DNA of 64,000 nt from Streptomyces diastatochromogenes (lineage in GTDB: Bacteria > Actinomycetota > Actinomycetes > Streptomycetales > Streptomycetaceae): positions 3,968,001 through 4,032,000 of the forward strand of contig JAPTYK010000001.1 in NCBI GenBank assembly GCA_026913215.1, written 5' to 3'. Positions 21,764 to 29,339 of the stretch are shown piece by piece (positions within the stretch are counted from its first letter, which is position 1; the number at the start of each line of letters is the position of its first letter). The position numbers and the translations under genes are program-made. A model generated the notes under the pieces. It ran no database searches, was not told the DNA's origin, and worked only from the letters and a program-made list of their open reading frames with translations.

Positions 21764-23295
21764 TCAGCCGACGGCGGTGAGGTGGCGGGCGGAGGCGTAG
21801 TAGCGGGCCTGTCGGCCGCCTCCGGCCCCTCCGGCCATGCCGTCGGCCTTCGTGGCCAGGCCGCTGTCGACGAGGCTGCTGAGGTGACGTCGCGCCTTCT
21901 CGATGTCGGCGCGTTCAGGGTCGTCGCCGCCGATGAGGATGGCCGCCAGCTCGCGTGCGCTCAGCCCGTTGAGGGCGTTGCGCAGCAGGGCGGCGGGGTC
22001 CTTGGTCGGGTCGACGGTGGTGGTGCCGCGCACGTGATCGTGTGTGACGTCCAGGGGGCCGACTTCACCGGTGGAGGTCTTGAGGTGGTGCAGGGTGACG
22101 GCGGGGTCGCCTGCCCGGCCGGTGACGAACAGGACGCTGCCCGCGCCGGAGGTGAACCAGGTGGAGCCATAGACCTGGTCCAGAGTGGGGCGCTGGCCGC
22201 GCGGCGCGTCGGCGGTGGCCTTCCGCTGGTGGTGCAGCTCCATGATCTCCACGCCGTTGCGAATGGCGCGCATGCGGGCGTTCTGGAAGGCGACCGCGAG
22301 GCTGTCGTCGACCATCGTGCTGACCGCGTCCTTGAGGCTGTCGATCACGATGGTGTCGGCCTGGTGGGCGGCGGCGAGGTCGGCGAGGAGGTCGGGCTCC
22401 TTGTCGAGAGTGGCGGGCAGCGGACCTTCCCAGACCACGAGCCGCTCGCGCAGGATCTTCTCGTCGGTGGGGAAGACGCGGCGGGCCATGGCCTTGGCGA
22501 TCTGCTTCGGCCGGTCCATTGCCAGGTAGAGCACGCGCCTGCTGGGGGCGACGGGCATTTCCAGGACGGTCTCCTGCAGGCCGATGCGGGCGAAGATCAC
22601 CTGATGGGCCAGGGTCGTCTTGCCGACGCCCGGAGCGCCGACGATCATCAGGCTCTCGCCGGAGGCCCAGACGGTCTTCTCTCGGGTGCCCCACAGGGCT
22701 CGGTGTCCGCGCCGCTCTCTTTGACGAACGACCATCCGTTGGTGGCGAAGCGGGACAGCCGTCCCTGTCCCGAGGCGAGTGCGCGCTCGCGTTCGGCGCG
22801 TACTTCCGCTTCGACCTCGCTGCGGATCGCCTCGGGATCAGCGCCGGGTTCCTGGGCCCGCTGGAGGGTCCGCACAGCGGAGGTCATCAGGCGGCGTAGG
22901 TCGGCCTTCGCGCGGACGATCTCCGCGTGGTGCTCGGCGCTGCCGGTGCCGTAGGGCGCGTCGGCGAGCTGGAACACATAGGTGGGACCGCCGACCCGTT
23001 GCAGATCGCCTTGCTGCTGGAGCAGTTCGGTGAGGACGATCGGGTCGGTCGGCTTGTCCTCGCGGTGCTGGGTGAGGAGCGCGCGCCAGATGGTCTCGTG
23101 CGCGGGCCGGTAGAAGGCGTCGTCGCCGAGGACGGGCCGGACTGCGTCGATGACGTCGGCTTTGTGCATGCAGGCGCCAAGGACCGCGCGCTCGGCGTCC
23201 AGGTTGAACGGAGGTTCCGTCGGGGTGGGACCTTCGTCGAAGCGGGATGGCGTCTGGGATGGCAGGGTCGTACCCTGGGTCACGGAGCTCCTCAT
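21764..23295 (-). CDS. DnaB-like replicative helicase (one frameshift)
   Basis: The N-terminal part has the DnaB N-terminal fold (PPFNLDAERAVLGACMHKADVI ... VGGPTYVFQLADAPYG). The second part is a RecA-like ATPase with Walker A GAPGVGKTTLAH, Walker B-like TIVIDSLKDA and a later WFTSGAGSVLFVTG strand, ending in a winged-helix-like tail. The two frames join near 22695 if one C is restored (GAGCCCTGTGG to a four-C run), giving ESGADTEPLWGTREKTVWA. Restored length is about 510 residues. ATG 23295 and GTG 23283 are both possible starts. It probably drives replication of the excised element, as replication proteins do in actinobacterial elements. Confidence 0.7.
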
Positions 23296-23309
23296 CCGGC
23301 AGGCCATTA

Positions 23310-23358
23310 CGGGGCGGCAACCCCGGCCTCCGGTTTCGATCGTTCAGGGATGGATGGT
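23310..23358 (-). promoter_or_regulatory. Leader/operator of the DnaB-like gene
   Basis: Read on the minus strand, CCATCCATCCCTGAACG (23357-23341) is followed about 15 bp later by a stem-loop CGGGG-TTGCCG-CCCCG (23325-23310). The same motif and a stem-loop with the same TTGCCG loop but a different stem precede xis at 24184-24237. The pair is probably a shared binding site of the XRE regulator encoded between them. Confidence 0.6.
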
Positions 23359-23560
23359 TGTGCGGTGGAGCCTCTACTTCGGCCCCGGTGTTCGTAGCAC
23401 CGGGGCCGCTTGCGTGTGCGGATCCGTCCGCCGCTGTACGGCGGACTACGACCATAGCCGAGATTTTCGGCAGCGCAACGCCTTGCATTTCACTCCGCAA
23501 CGATGTTTAGTTGTGGATGCTGGCCCCAGTGGACCCGTTGTCGCGTGAAGGGAGGTGCGA

Positions 23561-24100
23561 GTGAGCGGTGAGGAAGGTGCGGAGCGCGCCGGCCCCGGTC
23601 GTCCGATGCCGGAGGAGCATGTTGCCGCACGCATCAAACTGGAGCGCGAGGTCCGCGGTTGGAGCACGGTGAAGCTTGCCGAGGAGATGGCCGCCGTCGG
23701 CCATCCGATCAACCAGTCGGCGATCTGGCGCATCGAGAGCGGCAAACCCCGTCGCAGGGTCAACCTCGACGAGGCGCTCGGCTTCTGCAAGGTCTTCGAC
23801 ATCACCATGCAGGACCTGACGGGGCCGCCAGGAGAGCTGGCCACGCCCCGCATTCGTGAGCTTGCCCGTGAGTACGTCCAGATGACGCGGGAGTACCACC
23901 AGCTGCGAGCGGCGATCGACCGGAACCAGATGCACCTGCACGAGATCGACATGGAACTCAACGCATACGGGGACAAGGGCCCCGAGCAGAGAGGCCAGGT
24001 CGACGAACTCCTCCGGCTCGAAGAGCGGGCCTTGCAGAGGAGCCTGCACCCGTCCCGGGCGCACCTGCGGAACCAGGGGCAGCAGCCCGCCGGCGAGTAG
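23561..24100 (+). CDS. XRE-family transcriptional regulator of the element core
   Basis: A 179-residue protein with an N-terminal helix-turn-helix (HVAARIKLEREVRGWSTVKLAEEM, NQSAIWRIESGKPRRRVNLDEAL, about 20-75) and a C-terminal helical, charged region (YVQMTREYHQLRAAIDRNQM). GTG 23561 has GGGAGG upstream. It diverges from the DnaB-like gene and precedes xis-int. Duplicated motifs in front of both neighbours suggest it controls replication and excision together, a role comparable to regulators of pSAM2-type elements (inference). Confidence 0.75.
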   Translation: MSGEEGAERAGPGRPMPEEHVAARIKLEREVRGWSTVKLAEEMAAVGHPINQSAIWRIESGKPRRRVNLDEALGFCKVFDITMQDLTGPPGELATPRIRELAREYVQMTREYHQLRAAIDRNQMHLHEIDMELNAYGDKGPEQRGQVDELLRLEERALQRSLHPSRAHLRNQGQQPAGE

Positions 24101-24183
24101 TCGACCGCTGCCCCCTTGCTGCGCTACGAACGCCGACAATCCCAGCGCGTGGCGACCTCCATCGCCGACGATCATCTACCGAC

Positions 24184-24237
24184 CCATCCATCCCTGAACG
24201 ACGCCACCGGCTAGGCCGACGGGAGTTGCCGCTCCCG
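24184..24237 (+). promoter_or_regulatory. Leader/operator of xis-int
   Basis: CCATCCATCCCTGAACG (24184-24200) is followed by a stem-loop CGGGAG-TTGCCG-CTCCCG (24220-24237). Loop and upstream motif are identical to those before the DnaB-like gene, while the stem bases differ yet still pair. The xis ATG is 32 bp further on. Confidence 0.6.
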
Positions 24238-24269
24238 CGAGCCGCGAAGCCGGCGCGAGGAGTATCCCC

Positions 24270-24566
24270 ATGCCGCAGCCCGACCTGCCCATTTCCCAGA
24301 TAGCCCAGCTCCTGGAGGTCCCCGAAGACGCCCTGCGCACCCTGATGGCCGATCGACGACCCGCTGGCGACACAACCCTGGTCGCCCTCACCGTCACAGA
24401 GGCCGCCCGCCGGATCGGCATCGGCCGCACCAAGCTGTACGAGTACGTCTCTTCCGGCGAGATCGCCTCCGTCAAGATTGGTAGCTTGCGCCGCATCCCA
24501 TCAGAGGCGGTGAACGACTTCCTCGCCCGCCGCCTGTCGGCGACCGACTTCGGGGCCGCCGCGTGA
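24270..24566 (+). CDS. xis: Excisionase (MerR-like helix-turn-helix)
   Basis: A 98-residue protein with an N-terminal helical part (ISQIAQLLEVPEDALRTLM) and an HTH_17/excisionase domain: LTVTEAARRIGIGRTKLYEY, SSGEIASVKIGSLRRIPSEAV. Proteins of this type bend DNA at the att site and steer the integrase to excision. The stop overlaps the integrase GTG by 4 bp, so both should be made together. GCGAGGAG precedes the ATG. Confidence 0.85.
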   Translation: MPQPDLPISQIAQLLEVPEDALRTLMADRRPAGDTTLVALTVTEAARRIGIGRTKLYEYVSSGEIASVKIGSLRRIPSEAVNDFLARRLSATDFGAAA

Positions 24567-26328
24567 CTCGACCCTCCGCACCGAAGTCCCGCCAGCCCAA
24601 CGGCGGCTCCTCGATCTTCCAGGGAAAGGACGGTCGTTGGCACGGCTACGTCACCGTCGGGGTCAAGGACGACGGCACCCCTGATCGGCGCCACGTCAGC
24701 CGCAAGACCCGCCCCGAGGTCACCAAGGTCGTCCGTGAGCTGGAACGGCAGCGCGACAAGGGCGCCGTCCGCAAGGTCGGCCAGAGCTGGACGCTGGAGA
24801 CGTGGCTGACGCACTGGGTGGAGAACATCGCAGCCGCGCACGTCTCGGAGAACACCATCGACGGCTACCGCGTCGCGGTGAACCACCACCTCATCCCCGG
24901 CCTCGGCGCCCACCGCCTGGAGAAGCTCCAACCCGAGCACCTGGAACGCTTCTACAAGAAGATGCAGGACTCCGGCAGCGCGGCCGGCACCGCCCACCAG
25001 GTCCACCGCACCGTACGCACCGCCCTCAACGAAGCGGTCCGCCGCGCCCACCTCACCGTCAACCCGGCCGCGATCGCCAAGGCCCCGCGCCTGGAAGAGG
25101 AGGAGGTCGAGCCGTATTCGGTCGAAGAGGTCCAGTGCCTGCTTGCCGAGGCCGCCAAGCACCGCAACACCGCCCGCTGGGTCATCGCGCTCGCCCTCGG
25201 CCTGCGCCAGGGCGAGGTCCTCGGCATGCAGTGGGACGACGTCGACTTCGACCTCGGCGTCATCCGCGTACGGCGCGGCCGCCTGCGGCCCCGCTACAAG
25301 CACGGCTGCGGCGACCGCTGCGGACGCAAGCCCGGCTTCTGCCCCCAGAAGATCAACACCCGTCGCGAGACGAAGAACGCCAAGTCCCGCGCTGGCCAGC
25401 GGCCCATCGGCGTCCCAGACGAGCTGCTCCAGCTCCTGCGCCAGCACAAGGAGGAGCAGGTGCGCGAGCGAGCCCGGGCCCGTGACCTGTGGACGGAGAA
25501 GGGTACGTGTTCACCTCGCCCACCGGCGAGCCCCTGAACCCGAACACCGACTATCACAAGTGGAAGGAGCTCCTGAAGGCGGCGGGCGTCCGCAACGCCC
25601 GCCTCCACGACGCCCGTCACACAGCGGCAACCGTCCTGCTCATCCTCGGCGTCTCCGACGCGGTCGTCGACGCCATCATGGGTTGGGAGCCCGGGAAATC
25701 CGCCCGGATGCGCCGCCGCTACCAGCACCTGACCAGCCGCGTCCTCAAGGACACCGCCGACCTTGTCGGCGGCCTCCTGTGGGGCACGGGCCAGGTGGAG
25801 GGAAGCGCCGCGCCGGAGGCTGGGCAGAGCCCCGTGCCTGCCGAGCTGGTGGTCCACGTCGCCCGCCTCGGCGAGCGGAGGGTTCCCTTCCTCCACCGCG
25901 AGCACGCCGACGAGGTCGTCGCACGCTGGAGCGAGGACTGGCCTACCCACACGGCCGAGGCGGAGGAATGGGACCGCTGGCGTTGGGAACACCAGGGCCC
26001 CGGTGGCGCGAGCGCCATCCGCGACCGTGTGCCCAATCGGGCCGTGGTCTTTCACGCCCGAGCCCTGTTCCTCCCCGGCGGGGAGCGCGCAGCGACCGGA
26101 CTCCCGGAGCAGTGGTCGGTGCCGGCCTGGGAGTTCGAGGCCGACGCCTACACCCACCTTGCCTCAGCCTGGCGCACAGCCCGGCGGCCCGGCTTGGGCC
26201 AAGAGGTCGAGGCCCAGGTGCGGGGCACGGACAAGGGCGCCGTGGAGGCGGCCTTTGCCGAGGCTTGCGCACAGGCAGTGGATCGAGCCCAGAACCCGGG
26301 GAAGTACGGCGACACCGACGAGTGGTAG
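24563..26328 (+). CDS. int: Tyrosine integrase with C-terminal extension (one frameshift)
   Basis: An arm-binding start (SIFQGKDGRWHGYVTVG), a core-binding SAM-like domain (SWTLETWLTHWVENIAA ... FYKKMQDSG) and a catalytic domain with the Arg in GLRQGEVLGMQW (about 214), LHDARHTAATVLL (HxxR, about 347-350) and the Tyr in RRYQHLTSRVL (about 385). The frame changes near 25496; one G restored in CTGTGGACGG gives DLWDGEGYVFTSPTG. After the catalytic domain the protein continues for about 185 residues with good coding bias (HVARLGERRVPFLH ... NPGKYGDTDEW), which phage-type integrases lack. Its expected target is the 3' half of tRNA-Ser. Confidence 0.85.
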
Positions 26329-27424: not shown

Positions 27425-27554
27425 TGCCATAGCCGTACGGTGATCTTCTAGCCCACTCGTGTTGGTCGGCCCCGAGGAACTTCGGGTCCGGCCACCGGAG
27501 TTAGATCCCCTTTGCGCCCTGTTGAGTGTCAGTGGTCGTTCCTATGGTGGAGGA

Positions 27555-28817
27555 ATGGCTAATGGGGTGTGGCACACCGGATATGGCATAGAGATCAATC
27601 TGTCCCTGCCCGACCTTGGTCACCCGGAGCATCCTGATCTGCTCCAGGAGATCACTGCCGGCGTCTCCGCGCGCGACCCGCAGCTGCTCGAATGCCTGGC
27701 GCACCACGACAAGCGCGAGTGCCAGTCGGAGTCAGGCGGCAAGTCGCCCTGGATGTTCATCCGCCGAGGGCGCGTGGGCGGCCGACGACCGCTCGTCGCC
27801 TCGCACCTGCCGATCACGCACAAGGCGACGCCGGCGGAGAGCGCCCAGCACAAGGCCACCAAGGAGCGGATCGTCGAGACCGCCGGGCGGTACGGCCTGG
27901 ACGCCGAGGCCGAGGTTCCCATCGGCAACCGGCGCAGTGTCTCGGACGCCGTCGTCGTCGGGCCCGGCGGCATACGGATCGGCTGGGAGATCCAGTACCA
28001 CCACCTCAGCCCGAGCAGCGTCCACCGGCGCTCGGTCAACGCCGTGGAGCACGGCATCACCCCTCTATGGGTGGCGAAGGACCGGACGGCTTCCCTGATC
28101 GACCGGGCGCCGTGGGCGCGCGTCGACGACATGCCGTGGAAGGACATCGCCGACGGTAAGGAGATGGTGATTCGCGGCGGGTACCGGCACCTCGAAGTCT
28201 GGAAGTGCGTAGCGAGCAGCGAGCGCCACTGCCTCGTCAGCGACGGCGCCGGCCATTGCGGCGCGATTCACGCGGACTGGTTCGTGCCCGCGCTGTGCCT
28301 CCCGGAGAAGAAGCCGGTCTTCATCGAGGACCTGGTCCTGCAGAGCGCGACGGGGGAGAGCGTCCCGGTCTACGTGCCCAACCGGGGAAGCGGCCGCGCC
28401 GGCCGGCACATGTGGGTCTCGGCCAACGATCGTGCGCTGTGGCAGGAGCTCATCGGTGAGAAGGCGCCCCTCCCTGCGGCCCCGGTCGAGGAGGATGACG
28501 ACGTGATCACCTTCGCCGAGCAGGAGATCGACCGCAGCTGTCGAGCGGGGGAGGAGGGTTGGTTCGTCAGCGACGGCCGGCCGATCCGCGATCTCGACCA
28601 GCCGACCGGAGGCTTCACGCTTCCCCGGATGCCGGTGCAGCGGTCCAGCGACCCGATGAGGATCACCACCGTGGAACGCGCCGCCGCCTCTGCCGCGCTG
28701 GGATGCCCGCCGTGGGAGCTCGGGCTATGCGCCGGCTGCGGCCAGCTGATGCGGCGCTACGGGCGGAACGCCGCCATGTACTGCAATGTGTGCCGGTCCG
28801 TCCTCAACGGGCGCTAG
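27555..28817 (+). CDS. CoiA-like PD-(D/E)xK nuclease with C-terminal zinc ribbon
   Basis: A 420-residue protein. Residues about 100-180 match the CoiA-type nuclease core: KERIVETAGRYGLDAEAEVP, RSVSDAVVV (Asp), GWEIQYHHLSPSSVHRRS (ExQ) and VEHGITPLWVAKD. The C-terminus has CAGCGQLM ... YCNVC, a zinc ribbon. CoiA proteins aid DNA processing in competence; element-borne copies may act in defence or conjugation. The ATG at 27555 is preceded by GGAGGA with almost no spacing, so the start is uncertain. It is the last gene before attR and ends in front of a strong terminator. Confidence 0.65.
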   Translation: MANGVWHTGYGIEINLSLPDLGHPEHPDLLQEITAGVSARDPQLLECLAHHDKRECQSESGGKSPWMFIRRGRVGGRRPLVASHLPITHKATPAESAQHKATKERIVETAGRYGLDAEAEVPIGNRRSVSDAVVVGPGGIRIGWEIQYHHLSPSSVHRRSVNAVEHGITPLWVAKDRTASLIDRAPWARVDDMPWKDIADGKEMVIRGGYRHLEVWKCVASSERHCLVSDGAGHCGAIHADWFVPALCLPEKKPVFIEDLVLQSATGESVPVYVPNRGSGRAGRHMWVSANDRALWQELIGEKAPLPAAPVEEDDDVITFAEQEIDRSCRAGEEGWFVSDGRPIRDLDQPTGGFTLPRMPVQRSSDPMRITTVERAAASAALGCPPWELGLCAGCGQLMRRYGRNAAMYCNVCRSVLNGR

Positions 28818-28905: not shown

Positions 28906-28961
28906 TGGCGGAGGATACGAGATTCGAACTCGTGAGGGGTTGCCCCCAACACGCTTTCCAA
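28906..28961. other. attR: 3' half of tRNA-Ser
   Basis: This 56-bp stretch from the CCA end to the anticodon loop is repeated at 241-294. It is part of the intact tRNA gene, so the crossover lies within it. It defines the right border of the integrated element. Confidence 0.85.
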
Positions 28962-28993: not shown

Positions 28994-29116
28994 GGGGAGA
29001 ACATTACATGACTGGAGGGGGTGCTCGCGCACGTCGTCGGGAGCGGGGGGTGGGGGAAGGCCGCAGGTGGGTGAGGGGGGCCGGGGGAGGCGCGGGATCG
29101 GGTACGCTGGGCGCAG

Positions 29117-29199
29117 CCCCTCACGCGGTGCTATCTGACTGAACTCCCCCAGGGCCGGAAGGCAGCAAGGGTAGGTCGGCTCTGGCAGGTGCGTGGGGG
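29117..29199 (+). ncRNA. ffs: Small bacterial SRP RNA (4.5S RNA)
   Basis: Contains the SRP domain IV signature GGCCGGAAGGCAGCAAGGG with the GGAA tetraloop, flanked by paired arms that start CCCCTCACGC and end GTGCGTGGGG. TACGCT near 29103 is a possible -10. It lies directly before dnaX, as in other Streptomyces. The RNA joins Ffh to deliver nascent membrane proteins. Ends are approximate to a few bases. Confidence 0.88.
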
Positions 29200-29339
29200 G
29201 CGCTTGCGTTTACGGGGGAGTCCCCGAGTCGGGGCGGTCTCCCCGGACGGCTCCCACCCCGGGCCTTCCCCAGCAGCGCTCCCCGAGGACACCGGTCGGT
29301 TTTCCCGGGTTGTCGGTGGGCGCCTATAACCTCGTAGGC

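Follow-up and report, generated by a model that had tools for sequence, protein, structure and literature searches.

Why should one integrated element keep the same short sequence ahead of two sets of genes that are transcribed away from each other, one for replication and the other for excision? This question is raised by the window analysed here, a 64,000-nucleotide stretch of the genome of Streptomyces diastatochromogenes (contig JAPTYK010000001.1, positions 3,968,001 to 4,032,000). Its minus-strand unit opens with a DnaB-like gene (dnaB) and the other unit with genes for an excisionase (xis) and a tyrosine integrase (int); a gene for an XRE-type regulator stands between the two. An 18-nt motif, CCATCCATCCCTGAACG(A), lies in the leader of each unit, at 24184-24201 (+) ahead of xis and at 23340-23357 (-) ahead of dnaB, and the two copies are identical at 18/18 positions. 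These leaders probably form a module by which integrative elements of Streptomyces are controlled through an antisense RNA, and in which the excision leader would be a second target, reached in trans. This reading comes from comparing the sequence of the window with those of its relatives.

Two leaders with matched loops

Each copy of the motif is oriented with the transcription of its own unit. The inner hairpins of the two leaders are CGGGG-TTGCCG-CCCCG at 23310-23325 (-) on the dnaB side and CGGGAG-TTGCCG-CTCCCG at 24220-24237 (+) on the xis side. A preliminary description of this DNA had reported the motif once ahead of each divergent unit in the same relative orientation, as well as identical TTGCCG loops on different, self-complementary stems; the identity of the copies, their strands and both hairpins were confirmed in the sequence. 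A longer outer stem surrounds each hairpin and ends near the Shine-Dalgarno sequence, and in the folds the inner and outer stems together span 23296-23333 (-) in the replication leader and 24207-24253 (+) in the excision leader. The whole leaders, as delimited by covariance-model matches, extend over 23289-23363 (-; 74.4 bits) and 24178-24261 (+; 48.2 bits), each sequence being itself in the seed of the model. The 17-base core of the motif, with up to two mismatches, occurs only at these two sites in the whole 9.27-Mb genome, and its duplication is not due to chance. Folded alone, the xis-side leader is mildly more stable than its shuffles (z -1.71) and the dnaB-side leader about as stable as them (z -0.25). 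The case for structure therefore depends on the relatives.

The exact 17-mer is present in 8/392 genomes of the genus. In seven of these eight, there is one minus-strand and one plus-strand copy with starts 834-843 bases apart, and the reversed strand pattern was found in none of the 392 genomes. Among 15 named loci, the motif is exact on the replication side in all 15 and on the excision side in 13, the other two having one mismatch. Many of the more distant loci with an XRE gene carry an altered motif, mostly with the same change in both leaders of the element. A covariance model built from 36 of 65 leaders matches 78/297 genomes of the family and 89/392 genomes of the genus. In a sample of the phylum, leaders were found in 3/296 genomes (E <= 0.001), all belonging to the genus of the window.

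Leader counts for the family genomes rest on the 150 matches listed, out of a total of at least 150. These leaders form 102 clusters: 44 with a minus-strand leader followed by a plus-strand one, two with one minus-strand and two plus-strand leaders and 56 with a single leader. No convergent or head-to-tail arrangement occurs among these 102 clusters of listed matches. A second genome set, from which the genomes used earlier were excluded, gave 23 minus-plus clusters and 81 single leaders. According to the match of the downstream gene, 93 of the 150 leaders precede replication genes, 46 precede excision genes and 11 are unclassified, the start codons of the relatives being assigned by rule. Three kinds of replication genes, unrelated to one another, are represented: DnaB-like genes, DUF3631 genes and genes with a PHROG replication initiation match over their first ~50 residues. 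DUF3631 corresponds to RepAM, named as a replication initiator in the available part of an account of actinomycete elements (PMC3218068).

No Rfam family matched the leaders at gathering score. A search relaxed to E values up to 10 returned nothing but one microRNA match, due to chance and lying outside the leaders, and a search of 12 loci up to E 1 returned nothing. The 'int-alpA' RNA motif was not reported by the Rfam search of the leaders, and the one paper listed under this term concerns, to judge by its title, another subject. Furthermore, neither the XRE protein nor the leader DNA of one relative gave a match in plasmids. A 17-base core was found in nine stretches of viral contigs, which match the leader model with E values below 1e-5 in three cases, of 0.0045 in two and of ~0.05 in four.

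In most single-sequence folds, inspected by eye, the motif at the 5' side is followed by the outer and inner stems, a loop of six or seven bases and then the Shine-Dalgarno sequence. One of nine related loop words occupies the apex in 128/132 distinct leaders. The pairing of the inner stem was counted in 43 of 60 distinct 18-mers, chosen by their loop string and not by their pairing (12 leaders lack the six-base loop pattern): 82.8% of the positions are paired and double changes occur in all five pairs. Double-change cells number 37, whereas shuffles give 10.8 and sliding the pairing never gives more than nine. Hence, the further covariation that the preliminary description had proposed to look for in leaders of relatives does exist. 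Of its two suggestions for the paired bases, a function as RNA gained support, as the stems covary as hairpins, while a paired DNA operator did not. Moreover, the hairpin part of the leaders is more stable than shuffles in 70 replication leaders (mean z -2.20) and in 41 excision leaders (mean z -1.60).

The loop core is the same in 48/48 pairs of leaders from the same element, at 46 loci, whereas random pairing gives a mean of 19.5 and a maximum of 30. These pairs comprise 43 of a replication with an excision leader and five that include an unclassified leader; they were compared with a rule anchored on the hairpin, a cruder rule by loop type giving 39/43 matches. Six loop cores are involved: TTGCCG in 29 pairs, TTGCAG in seven, TAGCCG in five, CTGCCA in four, TTCGCCG in two and TAGCCC in one. 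In the 5' 32 nt, the longest common word averages 16.0 nt within elements and 10.7 nt between them. The stems of the two leaders of one element often differ. Such a combination, with loop and motif the same and stems free, is the pattern expected of a trans-acting reader of loop and motif.

Some other possible features of the leaders were set aside. A classical U-turn loop motif is, in general, not a match for the loops. Some folds pair the 18-nt motif with the Shine-Dalgarno sequence, but as others do not, no such pairing is claimed. The xis hairpin and the XRE coding region are partly complementary over 21 nt (86%), which was put down to chance.

Signals on the antisense strand of the replication leader

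In the window, the strand opposite to dnaB carries a predicted -10 element, TACCCT, at 23271-23276 (+), inside codons 3-5 of the gene. It is preceded, with a 17-nt spacer (register +/-1), by a predicted weak -35 element, TGGCGT, at 23248-23253 (+). An antisense TANNNT stands in the same place, at offset 7 of the coding start, in 77/88 replication genes and only once at another offset; none of the 46 excision genes has one within its first 60 bases. In S. avermitilis, TANNNT is described as a highly conserved -10 element with a variable -35, as far as the available part of that study tells (PMC8780764). Codon 4 ends in T in 77/88 genes, with 12 different amino acids at this position, whereas 5.9 cases would be expected from the codon usage for the same amino acids. 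Furthermore, the sense strand has CA at positions 35-36 of the coding sequence in 78/88 genes, which places an antisense TG where the -35 element is expected.

The antisense RNA, or countertranscript, predicted from these signals would be ~135 nt long (23283-23418 (+), both ends being inferred). It folds with three hairpins and is more stable than its shuffles (z -2.51). Its 3' end would be formed by a terminator-like hairpin at 23380-23408 (+), followed at 23409-23418 (+) by the tail CTTGCGTGTG, whose T-run is weaker than in most relatives. A strong GC-rich hairpin lies within 17 nt upstream of 83/88 replication leaders vs 3/46 excision leaders, and the 8 nt past this hairpin contain on average 4.43 T when read as antisense but 0.73 when read as sense. 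The sense-strand loop CTACGAA, or a variant of it, recurs in many of these terminator-like hairpins, in the window and upstream of other leaders. The conservation of this loop goes beyond what a terminator needs.

The motif itself appears to fold on one strand. On the antisense strand of the window, folds and shuffle tests place a G-U-rich hairpin at 23338-23359 (+). Compared with dinucleotide shuffles, the motif region of 89 distinct replication-side 28-mers has a mean z of -2.47 on the antisense strand and of +0.08 on the sense strand, and the antisense z is below -1 in 82 of the 89, the hairpin being rich in G-U pairs. Since G-U pairs turn into A-C on the opposite strand, a pairing test separates the strands: the same seven pairs are standard in 92.5% of cases on the antisense strand and in 60.5% on the sense strand. 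From 170 replication leaders, this test took the 38 distinct 22-mers that satisfied a sequence rule at the loop, so that repeated sequences and those in another register were dropped. Excision leaders have a weaker antisense folding bias (mean z -1.27), as one would expect for a target whose own antisense strand is not transcribed.

These signals were sought again in fresh genomes with rules for the -10 element, the hairpin and the loop that had been set in advance, all discovery genomes and six query-clade loci being excluded. Eighty of 98 clusters were retrieved; of 97 leaders, 84 remained once redundant ones and those identical to discovery leaders had been removed, including 65 replication and 16 excision leaders. 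TANNNT stands at offset 7 in 38/65 replication genes, against two cases in total at 54 other offsets, and in 0/16 excision genes. The upstream hairpin precedes 58/65 replication leaders and 2/16 excision leaders, with 4.36 T in the tail in the antisense direction vs 1.03 in the sense direction. With the automatic rule the loops match in 15/17 pairs; the remaining two, on reading, have the same 7-base loop word in a different predicted fold. Structured and conserved leaders, matched loops, an antisense -10 element in a fixed place, a terminator signal in one direction and a strand-specific fold are hence present as sequence signals. A predicted antisense promoter at the start of a replication gene, a predicted intrinsic terminator, a predicted RNA with structure and a replication gene as target are four features of plasmid countertranscript control that can be read in the sequence.

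How the module would work and what else could explain it

From these signals, we infer the existence of an antisense RNA, its repression of the replication gene and its action on xis. The RNA of ~135 nt would be transcribed opposite the replication gene from a promoter within the first 12-13 codons of that gene. It would start about opposite the start codon, extend across the strand complementary to the ribosome-binding site, the hairpin and the motif and stop at the terminator hairpin. By pairing with the replication leader encoded by the same DNA it would block translation, so that more copies of the element would mean less replication. The xis-int leader shares the motif and loop but has neither the antisense promoter nor the terminator. 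The RNA would reach it in trans as a further target, and this action would couple excision and integration to the control of replication. Loop and motif would be kept by contact with the same RNA, while the stems, each pairing only with itself, would be free to drift. The XRE protein would constitute a separate transcriptional layer. The predicted pairing between the antisense of the replication leader and the xis leaders reaches -106.7 kcal/mol for the cognate leader, -85.7 for non-cognate leaders and -52.2 for shuffled ones. In a fuller version of this mechanism, a single copy-number-sensing antisense RNA, made opposite the replication leader, would control replication in cis and, through the copied leader, excision and integration in trans; the element would thereby measure its excised copies and shut off replication and excision at the same time, and the loop types would be specificity groups comparable to the incompatibility groups of plasmids. 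We consider this version as likely as not.

Several observations weigh against control by an antisense RNA. In the window, a strict scan for sigma-70 promoters and terminators gave no match, the antisense -35 is poor, the tail has 4 T in 10 and the dnaB leader by itself is no more stable than shuffles. In the sense folds, the bases of the motif are on average only 62% unpaired, so that these models do not support an open target. For the antisense motif hairpin, shuffling is a weak control (92.5% vs 91.3%), because the columns of the motif vary little, and the sense strand, too, scores above its slid versions. In fresh genomes the -10 rule is weaker than in the first set (38/65 vs 77/88). Among the 27 genes without it, 23 carry CATACT or CATAAT at a distance of one base, a form that was defined post hoc and occurs ten times in the first set, and four have neither; CA at positions 35-36 falls to 44/65, with up to 24 at other offsets. 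As for the trans action on xis, it is proposed from shared sequence only, and just 6/43 replication leaders have their cognate xis leader at the top of the ranking by duplex energy. Moreover, in the available part of a study of plasmid pMV158, loop kissing is reported not to be critical (PMC4485353), hence loop identity need not mean loop contact. Finally, the sequences are related, so that the counts are not independent events.

The preliminary description had designated the XRE protein as the likely controller through the leader. If the motif and hairpin were a DNA operator read by this protein, which would repress both divergent units, the two should keep company, and an XRE-like frame (E <= 1e-3, weak matches included) does lie within 2.5 kb upstream of 82/104 replication or unclassified leaders; similarly, 45/49 XRE-positive genomes of the family also have leader matches, although not always at the same locus. 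However, no XRE-profile match was found in 7/46 paired or triple loci, and in four paired loci among these the leaders are separated by 389-391 bp with no frame of more than 84 codons. As judged from these loci, XRE is not required for the leader pair. Covariation of the stems as hairpins would be superfluous for an operator, the motif is not palindromic by inspection, and the strand-specific fold and the antisense signals would be left unexplained. We therefore regard an operator as unlikely, while the matched loops, the strand-specific fold of the motif and the signals for an antisense promoter and terminator favour an antisense RNA as the controller. By analogy with CopG, which stands beside RNAII in pMV158, XRE may exert a parallel transcriptional control. 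The four paired loci with leaders ~390 bp apart and no XRE match between them (L115, L133, L144 and L160) have the loop CTGCCA.

A leader acting in cis on its own mRNA, through an RNA-binding protein, the ribosome or a metabolite and with no antisense RNA, would account for a structure near the Shine-Dalgarno sequence and for a conserved motif and loop. Loop matching within elements is also compatible with a protein reader. Such a leader gives no account of the fixed antisense -10 element, of a terminator tail found in the antisense direction only or of the folding of the motif on the antisense strand only, and we consider it still more improbable than the operator. Just as improbable is that the antisense signals are those of the 5' end of an XRE mRNA with an attenuator, overlapping the leader incidentally: in most loci XRE, encoded on the antisense strand, does adjoin the leader and follows the terminator-like hairpin, so that the predicted transcript could be the start of the XRE mRNA, a further point against a dedicated antisense RNA, but the four paired XRE-less loci retain the hairpin and the coding-start signal, the excision leader copies the motif and loop and not the antisense signals, and a conserved AT-rich stretch from the hairpin to XRE in the clade could hold a promoter of its own for XRE.

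The host element and known systems of copy control

A 33-nt direct repeat of the 3' end of tRNA-Ser(GGA) at 241-273 and 28906-28938 (+) suggests that the leaders sit within an integrated element of ~28.7 kb, apparently bounded by this repeat. Hallmarks of integrative elements are present, namely a tyrosine integrase split between frames, an excisionase and tRNA attachment repeats. The N-terminal part of the dnaB-like gene (PF00772) occupies 22648-23283 (-), where the ribosome-binding site points to GTG at 23281-23283 as the start codon, and its ATPase part lies in a different frame at 21764-22735 (-). A candidate sense promoter of dnaB is located at 23451-23478 (-), with GCTATGGTC in 16/17 aligned loci of the clade and GCTATGATC in locus L021. 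The XRE-type regulator (23555-24100 (+)) is a protein of 181 residues with PHROG transcriptional repressor matches and no Pfam or NCBIfam match. The genome of the window is of Streptomyces type: the XRE profile led to 15 named relatives, every one a Streptomyces. Streptomyces sp. SirexAA-E (L027, complete sequence) and S. hydrogenans JCM 4771 (L016) are examples of strains with the element of the clade. Downstream of the regulator are the excisionase (24270-24566 (+); TIGR01764, HTH_17), the first part of the tyrosine integrase (24563-25537 (+)) and a frame with its C-terminal part (25489-26328 (+)).

Both the dnaB-like gene (21764-23283 (-)) and the integrase gene (24563-26328 (+)) are split into two overlapping frames; dnaB-like genes in a single frame exist in relatives (L094 and L150). 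Concerning transfer genes, one frame matches a MobB model with 50.9 bits, far below the cut-off of 400, and has no Pfam family. The end of the element carries a 452-residue frame (27459-28817 (+)) with no Pfam or NCBIfam match. The bacterial small signal recognition particle RNA, at 29112-29210 (+), adjoins the tRNA-Ser attachment site. At a second locus of the same genome (C1:5168322-5168398, L092), there is a lone replication leader with a different loop type, CTTGCCC.

Among the matches listed in the open-access literature, with subscription papers mostly outside, there was no description of such a system of leaders and antisense RNA. The maintenance of excised integrative elements is itself a little explored field: in the available part of a 2017 review, the section on this subject is headed 'An Unexplored World' (PMC5704250). 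If true, antisense control would explain how copy number is restrained and how replication and excision are coordinated, across three unrelated kinds of replication genes. It would also add an RNA family that has no match in Rfam 15, and the matched loops could be used for engineering.

Some components of the proposed module are known from other mobile elements. Actinomycete integrative and conjugative elements of the pSAM2 and RepAM types also have an integrase, an excisionase, DUF3631 (RepAM) and XRE regulators; in contrast to the module proposed here, regulation is attributed to Pra and KorSA in the available part of that account, and the word antisense is absent from its text (PMC3218068). 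A small RNA of an integrative mobilizable element, sgm-sRNA of Salmonella genomic island 1, is needed for transfer; unlike here, the available part of the report does not describe it as antisense to leaders of replication or excision genes (PMC9299015). In pMV158, an antisense RNA with a U-rich 3' end, RNAII, targets the initiator mRNA, and the small DNA-binding repressor CopG acts alongside, XRE being its would-be counterpart, according to the parts available of two sources (PMC4485353, PMC12361487). RNAII is a single hairpin, whereas the RNA predicted here would have three hairpins in ~135 nt and a second target.

A further likeness is to CopA/CopT of the IncFII plasmid R1, in which an antisense RNA acts at the leader of the replication gene. 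CopA acts there on the repA leader and the tap peptide, as described in the available part of the same source (PMC12361487). At 23 loci with phage-type initiators, a frame of 20-28 codons follows the leader (24 codons in 18 of them, with the ending KAG[CRW] in 21), and its stop lies 2-4 bases before the initiator start at 23/23 loci (e.g. L116, 3899-3973 (+)). This short upstream frame beside the initiator start recalls the leader-peptide arrangement of tap-repA. The window has no separate frame of this kind, the first codons being fused to dnaB. Unlike R1, the carriers here are Streptomyces integrative elements, the predicted promoter lies inside the start of the replication coding sequence and a second leader precedes xis-int. 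Hence, the module may be a plasmid-type antisense control of copy number, here perhaps also governing when the element leaves the chromosome.
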